Shown here: positions 8,700 through 53,419 of the stretch, piece by piece
Position numbering within the stretch: position 1 is the stretch's first letter
How the letters are laid out: every line of letters starts with the position of its first letter
DNA from: Chitinivibrionales bacterium
GTDB taxonomy: Bacteria > Fibrobacterota > Chitinivibrionia > Chitinivibrionales > FEN-1185
Direction of reading: 5' to 3'
DNA: 64,000 bases
Assembly (NCBI GenBank): GCA_035516255.1
Contig: DATJAL010000061.1
Coordinates: 1 to 64,000 of the forward strand
Made by a program: the position numbers and the translations under genes
Notes under the pieces: generated by a model
Told to the model about the DNA's origin: nothing
Seen by the model: only the letters and a program-made list of their open reading frames with translations
The model's database searches: none

Positions 8700-10760
8700 A
8701 TGCATTACATCACCTGGTGTGCCCTTGGGGCAGGAGTTCTGGGAGTTCTTTATTCGCTTGTCACCGCGGGCTGGATCATGAAGCAGCCGAGCGGCTCCGA
8801 CCGCATGAAGCAGATTTCCGAAGCGGTCCGCGAGGGCGCCACCGCGTTTCTCAACCGGGAATACCGCACCGTTGCCATGGTTGCCGTGGTCATTGTCGTC
8901 TTGTTGGGTATCATGGGTTGGAAAACAGGAAGCGGCGTCTGGATCGCCATCGGCTTTCTCATCGGCACGGTCGGCTCCGCGCTGGCCGGATATATCGGCA
9001 TGATGGTGACCGTGCGCTCCAATGTGCGCACGGCCGAGGCCGCGAAGAACGGGCTGCAGAAGGCATTGTCCCTGGCTTTCAAGGGCGGGTCAGTGACGGG
9101 CCTTATGGTTGTCGGCCTCGGCCTTCTCGGCGTGACCGGCTTCTACATGGTGGCGAAACATTACGCGCCCGAATCCGCGTTTCATGCACTGGTCGGTCTC
9201 GGGTTCGGCTGCTCGCTTATGAGCGTGTTTGCGCGCATCGCGGGCGGCATTTACACCAAGGCCGCCGACGTGGGCGCCGATCTGGTAGGAAAAGTTGAAG
9301 CAGGAATACCCGAAGACGATCCGCGCAACCCGGCCGTGATCGCCGATAACGTGGGCGACAACGTGGGCGACTGCGCCGGAATGGCGGCCGACCTGTATGA
9401 AACCTATACGGTGACGATCGTCGCCGCTATCCTTCTTGCCAAGACGGTGTTCGGCGCGCAGAGCATGTGGGTGGAATTCCCTCTTCTCATAGGCGCCATT
9501 TCCATCGTTGCGTCGATCATCGGAACGTACTTTGTCAAGATGGGGAAGACGCAGTACATCATGGGAGCATTGTACAAGGGGCTCGCGGTCTCCGGTGTGC
9601 TTGCCGCGATCGCATTCTATTTCGTCTCCGTCCTTTTCATCAAGCAGCTCCCCGCGGGTGAGCAGGTTTTTTCGGCCCTGAATGTGTTCCTCATGGCTGT
9701 CATCGGCTTGGCGCTTACCGGCCTCATCGTCATGATCACGGAATATTTCACTTCGACGAGTTTCGGGCCGGTCAGGCATATTGCCAGCGCGAGCCAGACA
9801 GGCCACGCGACAAACATCATTGCCGGTCTTGCAGTGTCGATGAAGTCAACGGCGCTCCCGGCGCTCGTGATAAGCGCCTCGATCCTGGGCGCGTTCTGGC
9901 TCGGCCACGGTTTCCAGAACGCCGCGGCGGGTCTCTTTGCAATCGCCCTTTCCGCAGTCGCCATGCTTTCCATGACCGGTATCGTGGTGGCCATCGACTC
10001 CTACGGCCCGATCACCGACAATGCGGGCGGCATCGCCGAGATGGCCGAGTTGCCCGAGGCGGTACGCAACATCACCGACCCCCTCGACGCCGTGGGCAAC
10101 ACCACAAAGGCCGTCACAAAGGGGTATGCCATCGGCTCGGCGGCGCTTGCAGCGCTCGTGCTGTTCGCCGAGTTTTCCCGGTCGTTCGGTACCGCGATCT
10201 CGTTCGATCTCTCCGATCCGCGGGTGCTGGTCGGTCTCCTTATAGGCGGCTTGTTGCCGTTCTTTTTCGGCTCGCTGCTCATGGAGGCCGTGGGAACCGC
10301 CGCAGGCGGCGTTGTCGAGGAAGTCAGGCGCCAGTTCAAGGCGTTTCCCGGCATCATGGCGGGAACGCAGAAACCGCAATATGGAACCTGCGTTGACATC
10401 GTGACAAAAGGCGCGATCAAGCAGATGATGCTTCCCGCTCTTCTTCCCGTCGCGGTGCCCATTGCCGTCGGACTCATCCCGGGCCTGGGCAAAGAGGCGC
10501 TCGGCGGCGTGCTCATCGGCGCGATCGTGACCGGACTGTTCCTGGCCATCGCCATGACCAGCGGCGGCGGCGCATGGGACAATGCCAAGAAGTTCATCGA
10601 GAACGGCGCGTACGGCGGCAAGAAGTCAGACGCGCACAAGGCAGCGGTCACGGGCGACACCGTGGGCGACCCGTACAAAGACACGGCGGGCCCCGCCATC
10701 AACCCCATGATCAAGGTGGTGAACATCGTGGCGCTGCTCATTGTGCCGCTTATCAAGTAG
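8700..10760 (+). CDS. hppA: Membrane-bound proton-translocating pyrophosphatase, K+-independent type
   Basis: This integral membrane enzyme hydrolyses pyrophosphate and pumps ions across the inner membrane. The 686-residue length and about sixteen hydrophobic segments fit the family. The substrate-binding block [18 protein letters not shown] followed by [19 protein letters not shown] is intact. In the diagnostic loop it reads [16 protein letters not shown]: Lys470 replaces the Ala found in K+-dependent enzymes, a change known to remove K+ dependence, and K+-independent members are H+ pumps. GAGGAGCAGGAGT precedes the ATG. A strong hairpin terminator follows at 10798, so the gene appears to be monocistronic. 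Confidence 0.96.
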
Positions 10761-44407: not shown

Positions 44408-44944
44408 ATGGTTTTCGCCAAAAAGGTACTGGCTGCGGCGTTGTGCATCATGGCGGCTATGGCGTTTCCGCTTACCGCCCAGCAGTATTTCAGCAACTGG
44501 AAGATCACGCCGGCCGGCGACGGCTCCGCGACGATGCTCATCACCGATCCCGCCACACCCCTCAAGATAGAAGCGGAAATGGAATACCAGGTTGACAATG
44601 CCGGCATTCCCGTGAAGGCGACCGTCAAGTTCAAGGACGGCATCCATCGCGCATTGACAACGGAGGAAGTCGGCTTTTACTGGTCGCTGCTCAAGGGCGC
44701 CAATGCCTTCTGGGATTTCCTGCAGCCACAGGGAAAAATAAACAGCTTTACTTCTTCGGTCGACATGATCCCGCTCTCATTTCTCGGACGCACGGTGCGG
44801 GTGATTTCAAATGAGGGCAATTATTATATGGGGACGCTGAGCCAGAATACGAATACGCCGGAGTGGTTTTCGCTCGACATTAAGGGCAACAGGGTCTTGT
44901 TCTGGAGAAAAGCGGTGCGGGAAATCCAGACCATCAAGCAATAA
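44408..44944 (+). CDS. Secreted protein of an unrecognised three-member family (paralogue 1)
   Basis: AAAGGAGGAAGT precedes the ATG. The 178-residue product has a signal peptide (LAAALCIMAAMAFPLTAQQ) and shares blocks with the products at 47197 and 49529: NWKITPAGDG near the start, VKFKDGIHRALTTEEVGFYW, AFWDFLQ, FLGRTVRVISNEGNYYMGTL and the end AVREIQTIKQ. Such conservation in proteins of equal length (178, 181 and 182 residues) indicates paralogues of one family. There is no known domain, lipobox or catalytic motif. A terminator follows at once. The proximity to the ECF sigma factor suggests that envelope stress or a surface signal controls it. Confidence 0.75.
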   Translation: MVFAKKVLAAALCIMAAMAFPLTAQQYFSNWKITPAGDGSATMLITDPATPLKIEAEMEYQVDNAGIPVKATVKFKDGIHRALTTEEVGFYWSLLKGANAFWDFLQPQGKINSFTSSVDMIPLSFLGRTVRVISNEGNYYMGTLSQNTNTPEWFSLDIKGNRVLFWRKAVREIQTIKQ

Positions 44945-44965
44945 GAAAAAAATTTTTTGCGTTAT

Positions 44966-44995
44966 AAGCCGCGGGCCCGTTCCTGCGGCTTTTTT
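44966..44995 (+). terminator. Rho-independent terminator after paralogue 1
   Basis: AAGCCGC (44966-44972) pairs with GCGGCTT (44985-44991), followed by TTTTATT. It lies 22 bases after the stop. Confidence 0.8.
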
Positions 44996-45033
44996 ATTAA
45001 ATGGTCAGGGTCACACGTCCGAGGGCCGTTCAG

Positions 45034-46452
45034 TCACCGCGCGGGGACCAGGCGACGATTTGCGCTCTGGTCGGCGGGAATCTTTGCGATCTCCATCAGC
45101 ATTTTATCGGCGCTGCACGAACCGGGGAACTCGAACATGTACCGTTGTGCGGTCCGCTGCGCGTCCTCTCGGCGCTGTTGAGCGATTTGAACCTTGACGA
45201 GCATGCCGTATTCCCTTTCCCGCCAGGCGCCGTTCGGGTACCGCGCGAGATAGGTTTTTATTCCCTGTTCAGCCTGACCGTAACGGACGAGCTTGGAAAA
45301 AAGTATGCTGTTGGACCGGTGCAGCACGGCTTCCTTGACAAGGCTGTCCTCTGTTGCCGCCGATGCCTTGTCATAGGCATCGAGGGCGCTTTCCCAGCGG
45401 CCGGTGCGGCTGTAGCAGAGCGCGAGGTCGCAATAGGCGACGTCGCGGTCCGTTGAAGCCGATGCAAGGTATTGCATAATGGCAATGATTGCTTTATCGT
45501 AATCGCGGCGATAAATAAGGCCGCGGATCGCGTCGTATCCCTGTTTCTGCAGGGCGGGCTTTTGAAGACGGTCGCCGCGCTGCTGGCGCGCACCCGTTGC
45601 GGGTGCCGGGACCAGTGCGATGTCGGATGAGGCAATGGATTCGAATTGTTCGGTCAATTGTTTCTGTTCAACCTCGGGAATAGCTGTTCTTTCCCAGGCG
45701 CCGGTTTCACAGTGAATGATGCACCTGTCTCCGCATGACAGCAACATCCAGCCGTTGGTCTGGCTGTTGCTGAGTTTTACGCCGCCCTCGACAACGGAAA
45801 CGAGCACCTCGGCGCCTGTCTTTTCAACGGAAAAATGCGTTCCGGTGGTAAACACCGTGACGGGCGCGCACCTGACCGCAATCGTATCGTAAAGCCCTTT
45901 GTGCGCCGCGATCTGCACATCGCCCTGGTCCAGGTTGAAATACACGACCCGCGGCCCGCGGCGGTCTATCGAGACGCGCGTGTTGAGGCCGGCATGAATG
46001 GCGCACATCCTGTTGAACATGACCAACGTGTCTTTTGCCGACGTCAGCAGTGGAATTTCGGCGCCCACGTTGCGGACGGCGGAAGAAACCTCAACTCCGC
46101 TTTTTTGAACGTTCCGCAATAAATAAATGCCTGAACCCAGAACAAGCAAAAGAACGGCCGCCGCGGCAAGCCAGGCAAATGTTTTTCTCCGTGTCGTCAG
46201 GGAAATGATCCGGGGCCGGCGGTTTGCATTTGCAAAGGCGCGATCAATGACGGATTCCGTTGCCGCCCGGTCGAGAAGGAACTGTTCCGGAGCCGGCCGC
46301 TTGATCAGGGCGAGCGACCGCAGCGCCTCATCATGGATTTTTTTACAGCGGCCGCATGCCTGGATATGCGCCTGAACGTCCGACTTTTCCTTCCCCTGGA
46401 GAAGGCCGTCGCACAGCAGGTAAATGTGACGCTCGCTGATTGGACATCTCAT
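45034..46452 (-). CDS. Membrane anti-sigma factor with zinc-finger, FecR-like domain and TPR-like C-terminus
   Basis: The 472-residue protein starts with a ZAS-type zinc finger (His29-x3-Cys33-x2-Cys36 in AHIQACGRC). One membrane span follows at 92-112 (FAWLAAAAVLLLVLGSGIYL), then a periplasmic FecR-like domain at about 148-240 (VVYFNLDQGDVQIAAHKGLY; VTVFTTGTHFSVEKTGAEVL; VVEGGVKLSN). Residues about 320-460 are helical repeats of TPR type (DVAYCDLALCYSRTGRWESA). It overlaps the upstream sigma gene by four bases (ATGA), so translational coupling keeps both in balance. It probably binds the sigma factor in the cytoplasm and senses a periplasmic cue. Confidence 0.87.
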   Translation of the reverse strand: MRCPISERHIYLLCDGLLQGKEKSDVQAHIQACGRCKKIHDEALRSLALIKRPAPEQFLLDRAATESVIDRAFANANRRPRIISLTTRRKTFAWLAAAAVLLLVLGSGIYLLRNVQKSGVEVSSAVRNVGAEIPLLTSAKDTLVMFNRMCAIHAGLNTRVSIDRRGPRVVYFNLDQGDVQIAAHKGLYDTIAVRCAPVTVFTTGTHFSVEKTGAEVLVSVVEGGVKLSNSQTNGWMLLSCGDRCIIHCETGAWERTAIPEVEQKQLTEQFESIASSDIALVPAPATGARQQRGDRLQKPALQKQGYDAIRGLIYRRDYDKAIIAIMQYLASASTDRDVAYCDLALCYSRTGRWESALDAYDKASAATEDSLVKEAVLHRSNSILFSKLVRYGQAEQGIKTYLARYPNGAWREREYGMLVKVQIAQQRREDAQRTAQRYMFEFPGSCSADKMLMEIAKIPADQSANRRLVPAR

Positions 46453-47021
46453 GCTAAATCCAGAAGTCCTTTTTTTCTGAGGTGTTTCGTGATCGTCTTT
46501 CTGCCCTTGAACAGGATCGCCTTTATCCCGTTCGAATGCATTCCGGTTTGGGCCGCGATCTCATCGATGCTGGCATCCGCGAAGTAAAAGAGGGAAAAAA
46601 CCTCCCGGTTCTTCGGCGACATTTCCAGAACGGCCGACCTGATTTCCCCGAACGCGCGGTCCCGGTCCACCGAATCCTCGATGGTCTGCTCGCGTTTCAG
46701 CGCATGCTCCGGAACGTCCTCAAGCGCGACCGTTTTTTTATACCCTCCTTCCTTAACAAGGATGGTGAGCGCGACATTGACGGTGATCCGGTACAGCCAC
46801 GTGCTGAATTTGCAATTTCCCTTGAACTCCTTGATGCCCCGGACCACCCGCATTGCTACTTCCTGAAAAATGTCCTCCTGCATTTGAGGATTTCTGGTCA
46901 TGCGAGCCGTAACCGACTGTATCAGCCTGCTGTTGGAAATCAGGAGCTTTCTTAAAGCATCCGTTTCCCCGCGCTGGCTGCGCAGGACGAGATCATTGTC
47001 CTGGCTCCCGGTATCATCCAT
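46449..47021 (-). CDS. ECF-type RNA polymerase sigma-70 factor
   Basis: The 190-residue protein has region 2 (QEDIFQEVAMRVVRGIKEFK, then FSTWLYRITVNVAL) and region 4 (MSPKNREVFSLFYFADASID, IAAQTGMHSNGIKAILFKGR) and lacks regions 1 and 3, as extracytoplasmic-function sigma factors do. It is transcribed with its anti-sigma partner and is divergent from the paralogue 2/TPR operon. A candidate ECF promoter (47131-47159) facing that operon lies between them, hinting that this sigma factor drives the neighbouring genes. Confidence 0.92.
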   Translation of the reverse strand: MDDTGSQDNDLVLRSQRGETDALRKLLISNSRLIQSVTARMTRNPQMQEDIFQEVAMRVVRGIKEFKGNCKFSTWLYRITVNVALTILVKEGGYKKTVALEDVPEHALKREQTIEDSVDRDRAFGEIRSAVLEMSPKNREVFSLFYFADASIDEIAAQTGMHSNGIKAILFKGRKTITKHLRKKGLLDLA

Positions 47022-47130
47022 ATTATAAGACCCTGCATCCGGGGAAAGGTTTCTTTATTTATCTATTGGCAGAAAAATTGCATTGTTAAATATATGATTT
47101 CCAAACCGGAAGATGTGATTGAAAAAAGCT

Positions 47131-47159
47131 GGAAACCATATTCTGAAACTTCAGTCTAA
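47131..47159 (+). promoter_or_regulatory. Candidate ECF sigma promoter upstream of paralogue 2
   Basis: GGAAAC (47131-47136) and GTCTAA (47154-47159) are separated by 17 bases, matching the GGAAC / GTC pattern of many ECF promoters, and lie 38 bases before the ATG at 47197. It is directly next to an ECF sigma gene. It was recognised by eye only. Confidence 0.5.
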
Positions 47160-47196
47160 TTAAGTAGAAGTGCCTATCATGAGAAGGAGGAATGTG

Positions 47197-47742
47197 ATGC
47201 AAAATATTGCGATGAAGTTCATGACGCCGTGCGGTGCCTTTTTAATTCTCGGCTTCCAGTTGCTGTTCGGCCAACAGGTCGTGAACAATTGGAAAATCAC
47301 GCCGGGCGGGAACGGCAGAGCCGCTACCATGGTCTTTGCCGATCCTTCAACGTATTTGAAGATTGAGAAGGACCTTGAACTGACCGTGGATGCCGGCGGG
47401 ACAGCCACGAGCGGCACCATTCATTTCAAGAGCGGTTTTCAACGCGCGATGACGCCGGAAGAGGTAGGCTTTTACTATTCTGAATTCAAAGGCGACAATG
47501 CGTATTGGGATTTCATGGCCCAGCAAGGCGGTGTCGCGGTTTTCACCTTCGGCCGTGATCCGGTCCCGCCGGAATTCATCGGACAGAAGGTGCGGATCAT
47601 ATCCCAGGACGGGATGAGGTACATCGGCATTCTCAGCCAGGTTCCTCCGCCGAGCACGGGTGATTGGTATTCGCTGAATATCCATAACAGCACCATGCTG
47701 TTTTACAAGTTCGCCGTGAAAGAGATTCAGCGCCTCAAGTAG
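47197..47742 (+). CDS. Secreted protein of an unrecognised three-member family (paralogue 2)
   Basis: AAGGAGG six bases before the ATG at 47197 decides this start; the longer frame includes the ribosome site itself. The 181-residue product has a signal peptide (to about LFGQQ) and the family blocks VVNNWKITPGGNG, HFKSGFQRAMTPEEVGFYYS, NAYWDFMAQ, EFIGQKVRIISQDGMRYIGI and the end KEIQRLK. It is closest to paralogue 1. The TPR gene follows after 40 bases, so both are likely one operon running from the candidate ECF promoter. Confidence 0.78.
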   Translation: MQNIAMKFMTPCGAFLILGFQLLFGQQVVNNWKITPGGNGRAATMVFADPSTYLKIEKDLELTVDAGGTATSGTIHFKSGFQRAMTPEEVGFYYSEFKGDNAYWDFMAQQGGVAVFTFGRDPVPPEFIGQKVRIISQDGMRYIGILSQVPPPSTGDWYSLNIHNSTMLFYKFAVKEIQRLK

Positions 47743-47782
47743 CCGGCGCAGCGGCGGAAGATGATTCGTACCGAGGCGCCCC

Positions 47783-49456
47783 ATGACTGCGGAAAACAGG
47801 ACTCTCTATCACGGACCATCATGCGAGGATGACGAGGAGAGTGAGGAAGGCCGGGTCCTGAGCGATGCCGAATGGGCGCAGGCGCTCAACAAGCGCGGCG
47901 ATATTTTCCTCATTGACAAGCAGCGGCGTCTGCGCAATGCTCTTGCAGCGACCCTGGCTGCCGGGGTTGTCTGCGGCGTGGTATTAAGCACCATGCAACC
48001 GGTGAAGAGCGTGCCCGATATCCGCCGCACCATTCCGGAAGCAAGGATGGCGAAATTGCTTCGTGGCGGCGTGTCTCAGCCGTCCGGTGAAGAGAAGACC
48101 GGACCGATCCGCAGGCAGGAAAACGTGCCGAAAAGGACGGAGGCTGTCCGTCTTGTCAAGCATGCCCCGGCGCGGATCACCCTGAATGCGGACATCCGCA
48201 GGACCGCGGCCGGTCAAAAACCGGCGGCCGCCGTTTCCGAGGAAGACAGCATCATCCTGCGCCGCGGCAATGGTCTCAAGCTCACCGATCATGCCGGCGC
48301 CATTGCCGAATTCAGGAAGGTGCTCGGCCATGATCCGCACAATGCAGGCGCGCTCGCGGGCGTTGCCGACGTTTTTCTGTACGCCGGCCTGCTGGACTCC
48401 GCCGCTGTGATGTACGAAGCCGCCGTGGCCGCGAACCCGCGAAGCGCTCCGGCGCGCAACGGACTTGGAACGACGCGGTACTATATTTCGACCATGGCCG
48501 CGAACCCCAATTATGCGGCACGCATGAACATTTCCGATCCCAAACGGTACAGGCAAGCGCAGTACGACAGCGCAATAGCCGATTACACGAAAGCGATATC
48601 GCTCGACAGTTCCTACGTTCAGGCGCTCACCAACAGGGGCGTTCTCCGGGAAGCCCGGAGGGATTTCAGCGCGGCGCTCGAGGATTACACCCTTGCCATC
48701 AAAATCAAACCTGCCTATGCCGATGCCTATGCCAAGAGGGCCGCGACGTATAAATCCCTGGGCAGATATAAAGAAGCTATTGCGGATTACACGGCGTCAA
48801 TAAAATGCGACAGCAATACCTATGAATTCAACCCGATGCTCCATGTCGTGAACGCGTATTTCGGCCGCGGGAACGTGTACTACCAGCAGGGAGAACTCGA
48901 CAAGGCCATCGCGGACTACGACAGCGCGCTCGCTCTCGACCCGAATCATAGCCTTACCCTCATCAACAAGGGCCGCGCGCTGGGGGACGCAAAGCAATAC
49001 GACAGCGCCATCGTGTGCTTTACAAAAGCGATAGGTCTGCTTTCGCCGCTGGAATATGACGGCGTGCAGGAACACGCCTATTTCGGCAGGGGATTGATGT
49101 ACAGCCTCACCGGCCGCAACGAGATGGCGCTTAAGGATTTCAACGATGCGATCAGGATGAAACCGGACGACCGGTTCGCCTACCTGCACCGCGGAAATAT
49201 TTATAAATCGCATGGCAGCTATGATTCGGCGGTCGCGGATTACAAAAAATCGCTGGAGTCCCGCCAGCTGGCGGCAAAGTCATGCTGGCGGATCGCCGAG
49301 TGCTTTTCGCTTGAGAAAAACAGGGACGATGCACTGGTGTGGCTGAGGAAATCCATTGAAAACGGGTTTACGGACGTCGATGCATGGAAACATGACAGGG
49401 ACCTGTCCTTTTTATGGAACGATAAAGAATTTTCCGCACTTTCAAAACGGCAGTAA
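47783..49456 (+). CDS. Membrane-anchored TPR repeat protein
   Basis: The 557-residue protein has an acidic cytoplasmic start (CEDDEESEEGR), one membrane span at about 51-71 (LAATLAAGVVCGVVLST) and a basic linker. From about residue 155 to 535 it carries roughly nine tetratricopeptide repeats (for example YDSAIADYTKAISLDSSYVQ, DFSAALEDYTLAIKIKPAYA, LDKAIADYDSALALDPNHS). TPRs mediate protein-protein contacts, here on the outer face of the inner membrane. It is in an operon with paralogue 2 and next to the ECF sigma/anti-sigma pair, whose anti-sigma also ends in TPR-like repeats, so it may scaffold the same response. Confidence 0.88.
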   Translation: MTAENRTLYHGPSCEDDEESEEGRVLSDAEWAQALNKRGDIFLIDKQRRLRNALAATLAAGVVCGVVLSTMQPVKSVPDIRRTIPEARMAKLLRGGVSQPSGEEKTGPIRRQENVPKRTEAVRLVKHAPARITLNADIRRTAAGQKPAAAVSEEDSIILRRGNGLKLTDHAGAIAEFRKVLGHDPHNAGALAGVADVFLYAGLLDSAAVMYEAAVAANPRSAPARNGLGTTRYYISTMAANPNYAARMNISDPKRYRQAQYDSAIADYTKAISLDSSYVQALTNRGVLREARRDFSAALEDYTLAIKIKPAYADAYAKRAATYKSLGRYKEAIADYTASIKCDSNTYEFNPMLHVVNAYFGRGNVYYQQGELDKAIADYDSALALDPNHSLTLINKGRALGDAKQYDSAIVCFTKAIGLLSPLEYDGVQEHAYFGRGLMYSLTGRNEMALKDFNDAIRMKPDDRFAYLHRGNIYKSHGSYDSAVADYKKSLESRQLAAKSCWRIAECFSLEKNRDDALVWLRKSIENGFTDVDAWKHDRDLSFLWNDKEFSALSKRQ

Positions 49457-49471
49457 TGCCGGCGGCAGGGT

Positions 49472-49503
49472 AAAAAAAGGACGTTCCCATTCCGGAAACG
49501 TCC
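49472..49503 (-). terminator. Rho-independent terminator of paralogue 3
   Basis: On the minus strand GGACGTTTCC pairs with GGGAACGTCC (49503-49479, small loop), followed by TTTTTTTA. It lies 26 bases after the paralogue 3 stop and just after the TPR gene stop on the other strand. Confidence 0.8.
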
Positions 49504-49528
49504 AGATGATCGCATCTTAGTAAAAATC

Positions 49529-50077
49529 CTACTTCATTTCCTGGATTTCCTTTACCGTGTTTCCCGTGAACAGCAACGGTCCGCCGCTGGCGCCGTCAAC
49601 GGCAAGTGAAAAGCCGTCCCCATTTGAAGACTTTGCGAGCTTGCCGATATACTCTTTGCCTTCCGGGCTGATCAGCCGGCATGTTTTACCGAATACTTCG
49701 TTCGGAACCTTGTCGTTGCCGATCACGTAAGAAACGGTCTTCCCATGATCCCGGCTGTAATCCCACACTGTGTTCGGGCCGCCGCACTTGGCAAAATAAA
49801 GCGATGCTTCCCCGTTGTTCATTTGACGCTGAAAGCCGTTTTTAAAGTTGATGGTGCCGCCCGTTGCCCTGCCGTCGGCTGAAACGGAAAATTGGAAACC
49901 CGACTCTATCCCGAGATAGGTTTCAGGATTGCTGTAGGTCATTGCGGTGATGCGGCCGCTGTTGTCGGTCGTGAGCTTGCATCCCTCATACGTTTCTTCC
50001 CCCGCGGATGCCAAAACAGGACATAACATTGTTATTGCGAGCAACCCCGCCATCGCCTTTAAGGCACGGGACACCAT
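49529..50077 (-). CDS. Secreted protein of an unrecognised three-member family (paralogue 3)
   Basis: AGGGAGGTTATT precedes the ATG. The 182-residue product has a signal peptide (LLAITMLCPVLASA) and the family blocks INFKNGFQRQMNNGEASLYF, TVWDYSRDHG, EVFGKTCRLISPEGKEYIGK and the end TVKEIQEMK. It is the most diverged of the three and has extra cysteines in the early part (EGCKLTT; AKCGG). It is convergent with the TPR gene and has its own terminator. No ECF-like promoter is visible upstream. Confidence 0.75.
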   Translation of the reverse strand: MVSRALKAMAGLLAITMLCPVLASAGEETYEGCKLTTDNSGRITAMTYSNPETYLGIESGFQFSVSADGRATGGTINFKNGFQRQMNNGEASLYFAKCGGPNTVWDYSRDHGKTVSYVIGNDKVPNEVFGKTCRLISPEGKEYIGKLAKSSNGDGFSLAVDGASGGPLLFTGNTVKEIQEMK

Positions 50078-50289
50078 AATAACCTCCCTTTTTCAAATTG
50101 GCTGTTTTATTACCCAGATGCAACCCTTAAATATAATTAGATAGAGTGTGGCCTGAAAAGATTGCTTATTATAAATCTCTGTCGTATAAAAAGTTCAAAT
50201 AAGTGGGTAGATGCCTGCAGATTTGGTTTGAAATAGAGAGTCGGGAGCCCAATAATGCTGCTTGAACAGCACGAACCAGCAGTCAATCT

Positions 50290-51186
50290 TTATTTTGATA
50301 GCCAGAAGTCATAGAAGTTGAACCATTCGTGCGGCTTTTCCTTCGCCACCTGCTCGAGAATGCCCACATACCGTTCCATTGCCGTGAAGAGGTACTTGTC
50401 CCGGTTTTCCGGTGTGATGCCGTCAAAGAGGATGGGCGCATGGGCCTTGAAGGCGTATTTTTTAAGCCCCGTTTTCGTCACCATGACGGGCACGATGGGC
50501 GCGCCGGTGGCCGCGCCGATGGCAAACGGGCCCACGGGGAATAGGACGTCGTCGCCGAGAAAATTGTGTTTTTCACCTTTTTTGCCGATGCTCCGGTCGC
50601 CGTGCATGCACACGATGCCGTTTTTTTTGAGCGCCTCGCGCACCGCGAACATGAAGTCGAGGCCGTCACCGGCAACCGGAATGACTGCGGTCCTGCGCGC
50701 CGCAAGGGCCCGGCCCAGAACGCTGCGGACCTCGGGCCGCTCGGCGTCGACCATGACATAGCTGACCGGCGCACTGAGCCGTTCCGAAAGAAGGTCGCCG
50801 GCGATCTCCCAATTGCCGATATGCGCGCCGAGCAGGATGACGCCCCGCCCCTTTTCCAGCGCCTGCGCGATCACGTCCTCGCGGATCGATTCGAACGAAA
50901 AGAATTTTTTTCTGCCGGTGAGGAATGCGTACTTGTCAATAAGGCTCATGCCGAAGGAGAAAAAGTGCCGGTAAAGGTCAAACAGCCCGGTTCTGAGGTG
51001 TAAATGGCTCCTGAAGGAACGGACCGCGGCCGCCGGCTCTTTTTTAAACAGCGCGTAATACAAGGCCACGAATAAGAGCAACCCGTAGGCGGGAACGAGC
51101 CCGAACCGGGTGACGAGCTGGATGAAAATCCATGTTCCGGCGGCGCTGCCCTTTGATGTGCCGTCCCAGGCCGTTTCGGCGTTCAT
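50290..51186 (-). CDS. LpxL/HtrB-family lysophospholipid (lipid A) acyltransferase
   Basis: The 298-residue protein has one N-terminal membrane segment (GLVPAYGLLLFVALYYALF) and the acyltransferase H-x4-E motif His122...Glu127 in LGAHIGNWEIAG. MHGDRSIGKKGEKHNFLGDD and PFAIGAATGAPIVPVMV are also typical. This family adds secondary acyl chains to lipid A or related lipids at the inner membrane. It overlaps the upstream TPR-like gene by four bases. It is the last gene of a three-gene unit with a PMT-like glycosyltransferase. Confidence 0.88.
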   Translation of the reverse strand: MNAETAWDGTSKGSAAGTWIFIQLVTRFGLVPAYGLLLFVALYYALFKKEPAAAVRSFRSHLHLRTGLFDLYRHFFSFGMSLIDKYAFLTGRKKFFSFESIREDVIAQALEKGRGVILLGAHIGNWEIAGDLLSERLSAPVSYVMVDAERPEVRSVLGRALAARRTAVIPVAGDGLDFMFAVREALKKNGIVCMHGDRSIGKKGEKHNFLGDDVLFPVGPFAIGAATGAPIVPVMVTKTGLKKYAFKAHAPILFDGITPENRDKYLFTAMERYVGILEQVAKEKPHEWFNFYDFWLSK

Positions 51187-51854
51187 CGGGAAAGCCCGTT
51201 GTTGACGGAAACCACGCCGTATTGCTTGAGCGCCTGTATCGCGTCCTGTTTGCGCTTCGCGTCGGTTTCGAGCCGGCAGTAGCGGTTGAAATATTCCTGC
51301 GCCAGGCCGGGATTTTTAAGCGCCGAGGAATACAGCGCGGCGAGCTGGAAGCACGACAGCGCCGCGGTCGTTCGAAAGGTCGCCTGATCCGAACCGGCTG
51401 CCGGGTTCGAGGAATACAGATCGATTTCCTTTGTAAATTGCGGGGCGGCCGCAGCGGGATCGTTTTTTTCAAGCAGCGTCATGCCGAGCATATAATGAGC
51501 CACCTGAAGATTTGGGGCTATCGCGAACGCGCTTTCGAAGTGGCGCTGCGCCGAATCAAGTGCGGCGCGATTGCGCGAGCCACGGTACAGTTCGTTAAAT
51601 GCCCCGCCGATGTTCGCCTCCAGGCGGGCGCGCTGCTCGGGATTTCTCTCAGGTGCGAGCGCCTGCGCCATCCTGGCGATGTCGTTTGCAATTGACTGCT
51701 GCCGCGAGTCATTGATCTGCCCGATGGTGGCCGACGGATACGGTGTGCCGAAATACCGGTAGTTGCCGTGCATGAGCCCGACAACGAGCGCCCACGCGGC
51801 AAACATAACAGGGTACACCGCGGCGTCGCGGCGGATGAGCGCGCGAATGTTCAT
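51183..51854 (-). CDS. Membrane-anchored TPR-like hypothetical protein
   Basis: The 223-residue protein has one membrane segment at about 13-29 (AVYPVMFAAWALVVGLM) and helical repeats such as AQRHFESAFAIAPNLQVAHY and CFQLAALYSSALKNPGLAQE, with TPR spacing. It overlaps both neighbours by four bases (ATGA-type), so translation of the three genes is coupled. It may hold the glycosyltransferase and acyltransferase together, an inference from position only. Confidence 0.78.
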   Translation of the reverse strand: MNIRALIRRDAAVYPVMFAAWALVVGLMHGNYRYFGTPYPSATIGQINDSRQQSIANDIARMAQALAPERNPEQRARLEANIGGAFNELYRGSRNRAALDSAQRHFESAFAIAPNLQVAHYMLGMTLLEKNDPAAAAPQFTKEIDLYSSNPAAGSDQATFRTTAALSCFQLAALYSSALKNPGLAQEYFNRYCRLETDAKRKQDAIQALKQYGVVSVNNGLSR

Positions 51855-53419
51855 TGCCGTATCACCTTGTAAACCGCCGTGGGCGGGTTGTTAAGCACGT
51901 ACACCATCTGAAAGCGGTCCGGGAACGTCTGGAGCACGGGGTAGAGATACTGCCGCGTGGTCGCGGTCCAGGCGAAGTTGTCGAGCACCACGTAATCCAC
52001 ATGCGCGCTGTCTATTTCCCTCATGATATTGTTGACATCGTGCGAGTACGAATACATGACGCCGGCGCGCTTTGCGCGGATGTAGAACAACTCCACTTTC
52101 CGGTTCATGACGACGGCGTCCGGCGGCGTGTTGATCCGCATCCAGTCGGCGCAGCTGTAGAAGTTTTTCCAGTCCGGACCCAGGGCCTGGCTTTTGCGCA
52201 GGAACATCGACGCATATGAGACGTTGAGGACAAGGACGAAGGCCACGGCGATCCATGCGGCTGCGCGGCCGGGAACCGGCGGCCCCTGCACGTCAAGGGC
52301 TGCGTTCTTAAGGCGTGCAAGGAACGGCGTTTTTTTCTGCTGCCCGGCGAATACGCCGACTGCGCCCTCGAGGCCGTAAAGGAGAAAGAAAAATAGAAAC
52401 GGAACCACGCCCGCAACGAAGCGCTCGCTTGACCATTGCGTCTGCCACATAAGCAGGATGCCGAAGTACATGAACACGTACAACGAAAGGAATTTCATGG
52501 CGCCGAACAGGCCGCGCGCCCATCCCAACAGGATGAACACGACAATAAAGATGCCCGCGGCGGTCTGCTGGCCCGGCGTGGAGGGGAACGGCAGGGGAAG
52601 CAGGGACCGCTGCATGATGATCGAACCGTATGCCTTGATGTTTTCCATAACCCGCTGCGCCATCTCGGCGGGCGTCACGAAGCCCGCCTCGGGGTCGTAG
52701 GTATTTTTCTGGATGATCTGGACGAGATAGGAATTTTCCCACGAGGTGAGCATGTGGAACACGACCACGGTCGCCAGGAGAAGGACGACATGCGCGGCCG
52801 CATAGCTGTACCGTTTTGTAAAGAGGGTCGTGAGGATCCACGACGCGCTGAACGCGAGCCCCACGCTCCTGCAGTGCATGGGGAAAACCGAGATCACGGC
52901 CGTGAGCCAGAACAGCCACGCTTTTTTCGGGTTCGCAACGCTCAGTTCGTACAGGTACAGCGCGAGGAGCGAGAAAAAAAGATACGGTATTTCGCTCATG
53001 AGGCTCAAGCTGAATTGCGCGAGCGTCGCCGAGCCCGCGCACAGCAGCACCATGGGAACGAGCAGGTTTTTGGAATAGATCCGAAACAGCATGAACGCAA
53101 GGAGCGTGACGCAGGCGCCGAGGATGCCCTGCGCGATTTTCGCGAGCAGGATGCTGTCGGAAAAAACATCCAGAAAAGAAAGCATGAGGGGAAACACCGC
53201 GGGATATGTTTTTTCAACCGGCATGGTGGGGTGCTGGATCTGCCTGAACCCTTTTCCGTCGTGGATCGCCTTTCCGAGTAGGTAGTAGCGCGCGTCGTCG
53301 CCGTTGGTGGAAAGGCCAGGGGTGAACTGCGTTCCAAGCAACACGAGCTGGAAAATGATGATGATGCGCACCCAGGTTGACGAAGAGATTTGAAGGCCGG
53401 ATGGTTTGGTTTCTTGCAT
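51851..53419 (-). CDS. PMT/ArnT-like membrane glycosyltransferase (GT39/GT83-like)
   Basis: The 522-residue protein has about eleven to twelve hydrophobic segments. The first loop carries NGDDARYYLLGKAIHDGKGF, where the paired acidic residues match the catalytic Asp/Glu of the PMT/ArnT/GT-C fold, followed by YPAVFPLMLSFLDVFSDSIL. The C-terminal soluble domain (about 430-520) contains CADWMRINTPPDAVVM, usual for these proteins. It probably moves a sugar from a polyprenyl phosphate to a lipid or protein on the periplasmic side. It is the first gene of the unit with TPR and LpxL-like genes, which suggests lipid A or surface glycolipid modification. Confidence 0.85.
   Translation of the reverse strand: MQETKPSGLQISSSTWVRIIIIFQLVLLGTQFTPGLSTNGDDARYYLLGKAIHDGKGFRQIQHPTMPVEKTYPAVFPLMLSFLDVFSDSILLAKIAQGILGACVTLLAFMLFRIYSKNLLVPMVLLCAGSATLAQFSLSLMSEIPYLFFSLLALYLYELSVANPKKAWLFWLTAVISVFPMHCRSVGLAFSASWILTTLFTKRYSYAAAHVVLLLATVVVFHMLTSWENSYLVQIIQKNTYDPEAGFVTPAEMAQRVMENIKAYGSIIMQRSLLPLPFPSTPGQQTAAGIFIVVFILLGWARGLFGAMKFLSLYVFMYFGILLMWQTQWSSERFVAGVVPFLFFFLLYGLEGAVGVFAGQQKKTPFLARLKNAALDVQGPPVPGRAAAWIAVAFVLVLNVSYASMFLRKSQALGPDWKNFYSCADWMRINTPPDAVVMNRKVELFYIRAKRAGVMYSYSHDVNNIMREIDSAHVDYVVLDNFAWTATTRQYLYPVLQTFPDRFQMVYVLNNPPTAVYKVIRQ

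Follow-up and report, generated by a model that had tools for sequence, protein, structure and literature searches.

A conserved ECF sigma/anti-sigma locus with a family of small secreted proteins and a common promoter-like site in Fibrobacterota

A cluster of six genes from a Chitinivibrionales bacterium (G000, genome of 4.28 Mb) raises the question of what an ECF sigma factor and its membrane anti-sigma factor have to do with the three similar secreted proteins and the TPR protein encoded beside them. The window analysed is a stretch of 64,000 nucleotides on contig C61 of this genome. The evidence gathered here consists of homology, gene neighbourhood, promoter-like sites and a predicted fold, and it points to a conserved locus of sigma factor, anti-sigma factor and secreted family with a common and rare site of ECF promoter type. 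The reading favoured, with a probability of about 0.6, is an autoregulated ECF sigma/membrane anti-sigma module with the family of small secreted proteins as its principal dedicated output.

All six genes were found where the first-pass annotation had placed them, and are listed in Table 1 together with two candidate promoters. The start of the anti-sigma gene overlaps the end of the sigma gene by 4 bp. The start of PB was taken as the ATG behind AAGGAGG, the first start of the open reading frame being a GTG at 47170. The TPR gene starts 40 nt behind PB and is probably co-transcribed with it. Upstream of PC (window positions 50290-53419, minus strand), overlapping genes for a lipid A acyltransferase-like protein, a TPR protein and a membrane protein of 522 aa are arranged as an operon, in an order that is also kept in the same-genus congener G001.

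Table 1. Positions and characteristics of the genes and candidate promoters of the cluster in the window.
Feature	Position	Strand	Characteristics
PA	44408..44944	+	178 aa; secreted two-domain protein of a new family; four shared motifs, alignment scores, orthologue in G001
Anti-sigma factor	45034..46452	-	Zinc-type C-H-C-C N-terminus, membrane helix ~94-115, FecR 157-226, TPR C-terminus
ECF sigma factor	46449..47021	-	Sigma70_r2, Sigma70_r4_2 (Pfam), TIGR02937
Candidate sigma autoregulatory promoter	47025..47054	-	AGAAACC-N16-GTCTTAT, 12/14 positions
Candidate PB promoter, ECF type	47131..47160	+	GGAAACC-N16-GTCTAAT, 14/14 positions
PB	47197..47742	+	181 aa; secreted two-domain family protein; AlphaFold2 model from base 47200
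TPR protein gene	47783..49456	+	One N-terminal membrane helix; TPR by Pfam
PC	49529..50077	-	182 aa; secreted two-domain family protein; shared motifs

The sigma factor (190 aa) showed Sigma70_r2 at residues 29-89 (8.3e-13), Sigma70_r4_2 at residues 126-176 (2.8e-10) and no other sigma domain in Pfam, and matched TIGR02937 at 1.3e-25 (90 bits, cut-off 42.9). On these matches it is an ordinary ECF (group IV) sigma factor with sigma2 and sigma4 only. The anti-sigma factor matched FecR (PF04773; 9.1e-6, 26.5 bits, cut-off 24) and TPR_19 (7.4e-7), while the match to zf-HC2 (2.4e-4, 21.6 bits) lay slightly below the cut-off of 22.2. Its membrane helix was read from the sequence. Residues C3, H29, C33 and C36 are invariant across four anti-sigma orthologues, and the last three form the Hx3Cx2C signature of class I zinc-type anti-sigma factors (PMC7406223). 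With these Pfam matches and those of the TPR protein, the first-pass description of a sigma/anti-sigma/TPR group accompanied by three paralogues is borne out.

The module resembles the SigW/RsiW type, an ECF sigma factor with a membrane class I zinc-type anti-sigma factor, in its sigma factor, which has sigma2 and sigma4 only, in the overlap of the anti-sigma gene, in the Hx3Cx2C signature, and in candidate promoters of AAC/GTC type and probable autoregulation. It differs from that type in its periplasmic part, predicted here as FecR plus TPR, and in its apparent dedicated target, an unnamed secreted family. The FecR domain is shared with FecI/FecR cell-surface signalling; on the other hand, the zinc-type N-terminus, the TPR extension and the apparent autoregulation set the two apart, FecI-like systems lacking autoregulation (PMC8103513). 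No TonB-dependent transducer with a signalling domain was found by Pfam among the window genes from 44408 to 53419, and the cluster of the congener (L029) has the same genes apart from the TPR gene.

As the first-pass annotation had claimed, PA, PB and PC are genuinely paralogous (32-45% identity): pairwise local alignment gave scores of 387, 218 and 292, where shuffled sequences reached at most 51-56, and all four motifs that it listed occur in each of the three. Signal-peptide-like N-termini were read from the three sequences (PA ...PLTA|QQ, PC ...LASA|GEE). Searches of Pfam and NCBIfam returned no family that covers the three. The nearest Pfam LSM-clan match, to LSM14, reached 20.5 bits against a cut-off of 30 and concerned one of 17 family members. 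Against solved structures, the family profile gave nothing beyond chance-level matches, to taurine dioxygenases (E 0.009, covering a short R...E...WD stretch) and to SPT5 (E 0.36).

The AlphaFold2 model of PB, built from 17 sequences (pLDDT 88.6, pTM 0.79), places strands between residues 26 and 83, helices at 86-95 and 98-108, and strands at 130-179. The predicted N-terminal domain is thus a sheet plus a helix pair, and the C-terminal one a five-strand barrel of Sm/Hfq type. For this barrel, Foldseek returned Hfq and Sm matches with probability 1.00 and a target TM of up to 0.78, at E-values of only ~0.006-0.05; the likeness to Hfq of M. jannaschii (PDB 5dy9) and other Sm/Hfq-like barrels (target TM 0.74-0.78) is confined to the C-terminal barrel. 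The family differs from those barrels in its signal-peptide-like N-terminus, in the position of the barrel behind a sheet/helix domain and in having no sequence-level membership. The statement that the three proteins hold no recognisable domain is therefore retained at the level of sequence, but not for the C-terminal third of the predicted structure. The N-terminal domain alone (pLDDT 90.6) gave no confident Foldseek match. LolA recurred as a weak one (best E 0.044, TMq 0.36, ~55 residues), and at these values a LolA/RseB-like fold over the whole domain was rejected. Tandem-Tudor matches of the whole model (rmsd ~15, TMq 0.23) superpose one barrel at most, and matches from a viral structure library were mostly small barrels or poor superpositions.

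The distribution of the family was assessed with a profile of its 17 members, run on 168 genomes of the phylum and then on 392 relatives. The 17 genes lie in 6 of the 168 Fibrobacterota genomes, belonging to four genera of one order, and no further members were found in the set of 392. A degenerate-peptide scan of contigs from 84,980 species, which reaches close relatives only, matched the congener alone. Copy number is five in G000 and six in G001. The orthologues of PA and PC in G001 (69% and 58% identity, the former in the same place in the cluster) group with them in the tree; the partner of PB, moderately supported, is a copy on another contig (C27), and copies may therefore have been shuffled between places. 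On contig C17 of G000, two family copies lie tail-to-tail beside a GH64 beta-1,3-glucanase-like gene, without sigma gene or motif (L028:2998-4191), and contig C3 of G001 carries a head-to-head pair of family genes (L031:8592-10214).

An anti-sigma profile run on the same 168 genomes retrieved four full-length orthologues (G000, G001, G021 and G035) at ~700 bits or more, everything else scoring below 90 bits; these four had also built the profile. All four adjoin a family gene, so that the neighbourhood is conserved in relatives, as the first-pass annotation had asked to be checked. The sigma operon and the family gene are divergent in G000, G001 and G021 and tail-to-tail in G035, and these differing arrangements indicate that the association is more than one inherited block. 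Family genes without such an anti-sigma factor occur in G002 (only 79% complete) and G030. Elsewhere in Fibrobacterota, modules in G043 (C453:1972-4939, L112) and G035 (C382:454-3229, L115) likewise have a sigma gene followed by a FecR-TPR anti-sigma gene and an adjoining small envelope protein, but this protein carries a PEGA domain or is a secreted one with weak SH3 likeness, and does not belong to the family.

The TPR protein accompanies the family at some loci only and is not a core part. It belongs to the cluster at this locus, and in a second genus (G002) a family gene lies immediately before its homologue; in the congener, however, it is absent from the cluster, the best match being on another contig, and no homologue was found in G021 or G035 at E 1e-30. 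In G002, the family gene and the TPR gene are preceded by a gene (C188, L034:1473-2978) whose match to the capsule-assembly protein Wzi falls below threshold.

At all four anti-sigma loci, the operon-adjacent family gene is preceded by GGWAACC-N16/17-GTCTAAW, with 13-14 of its 14 positions matched. AAC at -35 and CGT at -10 mark the ECF promoters that were studied first, and autoregulation is found in most ECF operons (PMC8103513); the motif fits this general type. The PB site is one of three matches to a looser pattern in the whole genome. Across 15 genomes this pattern gave 0-4 matches per genome, near the reversed-pattern control, and by itself is therefore not a regulon finder. With GTCTAA fixed, five matches occur in the six genomes that carry the family, and four of them are promoters of family genes. 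The fifth (G000 C49:9803), an exact GGTAACC-N17-GTCTAAA, lies before a gene for a 187-aa protein that has a membrane helix and matches no Pfam family (L113:4855-5418). The motif was first spotted by eye. In a de novo search of 16 upstream regions, the best 10-base dyad was AACC-N16/17-GTCTAA, present in four regions and equalled in 4 of 200 shuffled sets, a modest result by itself (about 0.02); a search for 4+4 dyads gave nothing above shuffles.

Upstream of the sigma gene, the congener has GGAAACC-N16-GTCACA in the same place as the candidate site of G000 (L029 ~9547-9578, plus strand). The -10 element of the G000 site stops 3 bases before the ATG, and that of the congener likewise within a few bases, so that use of these sites would imply a leaderless mRNA or a different start. 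No motif precedes the sigma gene of G021, and that of G035 is cut by the contig end. Matching promoter sequences suggest that the sigma factor turns on itself and at least one secreted family protein. In G001, the site of PC and that of C3a, a copy on contig C3 away from the operon, score 12/14. A convincing motif was absent upstream of PA and PC in G000, of the two C17 copies and of the C27 copy of G001, and hence the regulon need not include every copy of the family; G002 and G030 likewise have no motif before their family genes. A one-mismatch search for further regulon members gave mostly intragenic sites, and looser searches also matched unrelated genes. One site with a single mismatch, AGAAACC-N16-GTCTAAT at G000 C19:59715, lies before a WXXGXW-repeat protein with a lipoprotein-like N-terminus (L114:5844-6644), a possible extra regulon member.

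From these data we infer as follows how the module would work: its topology and signal, how the sigma factor is released and uses the sites, and what the secreted proteins do. The cytoplasmic zinc-type domain of the anti-sigma factor would hold the sigma factor at the membrane, and its FecR and TPR parts would face the periplasm and receive an envelope signal. From GGWAACC-N16/17-GTCTAA promoters, the freed sigma factor would then drive transcription of its own operon and of PB, which is divergent from it and followed by the TPR gene. The secreted proteins would have their role, envelope protection or feedback, in the periplasm, where they would most likely bind a component of the envelope during stress. 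The picture proposed at first, a self-contained system of envelope signalling that brings its own effectors, is partly supported: the conserved neighbourhood and the rare common promoter uphold the module and its link to the family, whereas the effector role is putative, no clear sigma promoter was found for PA and PC of G000, and the TPR protein is only partly linked.

The secreted proteins could instead be sensors or feedback regulators of the anti-sigma factor, RseB- or CnrX-like, which bind its periplasmic FecR/TPR part and are made in larger amounts by the sigma factor, closing the loop. RseB has a LolA-like part, and both the weak LolA matches of the N-terminal domain and the presence of the family beside every full-length orthologue found of this anti-sigma subtype agree with such a role. 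Those matches are short, however, family members persist in G002 and G030, which lack the anti-sigma factor, and family copies exist far from the operon; this reading is considered unlikely. The specific proposal that the paralogous Sm-like-barrel proteins, under control of the sigma factor, read a periplasmic signal and bind and tune the zinc-FecR-TPR anti-sigma factor is considered unlikely; if true, signal-reading barrel proteins would be a new type of ECF input.

That lineage-specific secreted proteins came to lie near a sigma operon by chance, the neighbourhood being inherited synteny, would accord with the long stretch common to G000 and G001, from MetK to the 522-aa membrane protein, and with the several family copies found elsewhere without sigma gene or motif. 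The association recurs, however, in two genera of another family in different surroundings (L036, L037) and with the same rare promoter-like site, and this explanation appears improbable. An RNA-binding function, to which the Hfq and Sm matches of the barrel might point, is very improbable given the signal-peptide-like N-termini and the LSM-family sequence match below cut-off, and because Sm/Hfq-like barrels have many non-RNA roles.

In the library searched, papers on ECF systems of Fibrobacterota and Fibrobacter, and on periplasmic Sm-like lipoproteins, were sought with nothing directly relevant found. With the autoregulated module as the preferred reading, an unnamed family of signal-peptide-bearing proteins gains a regulatory context, a predicted fold and a concrete candidate promoter, and FecR-TPR anti-sigma modules whose small envelope proteins can be exchanged may be a recurring theme in Fibrobacterota.
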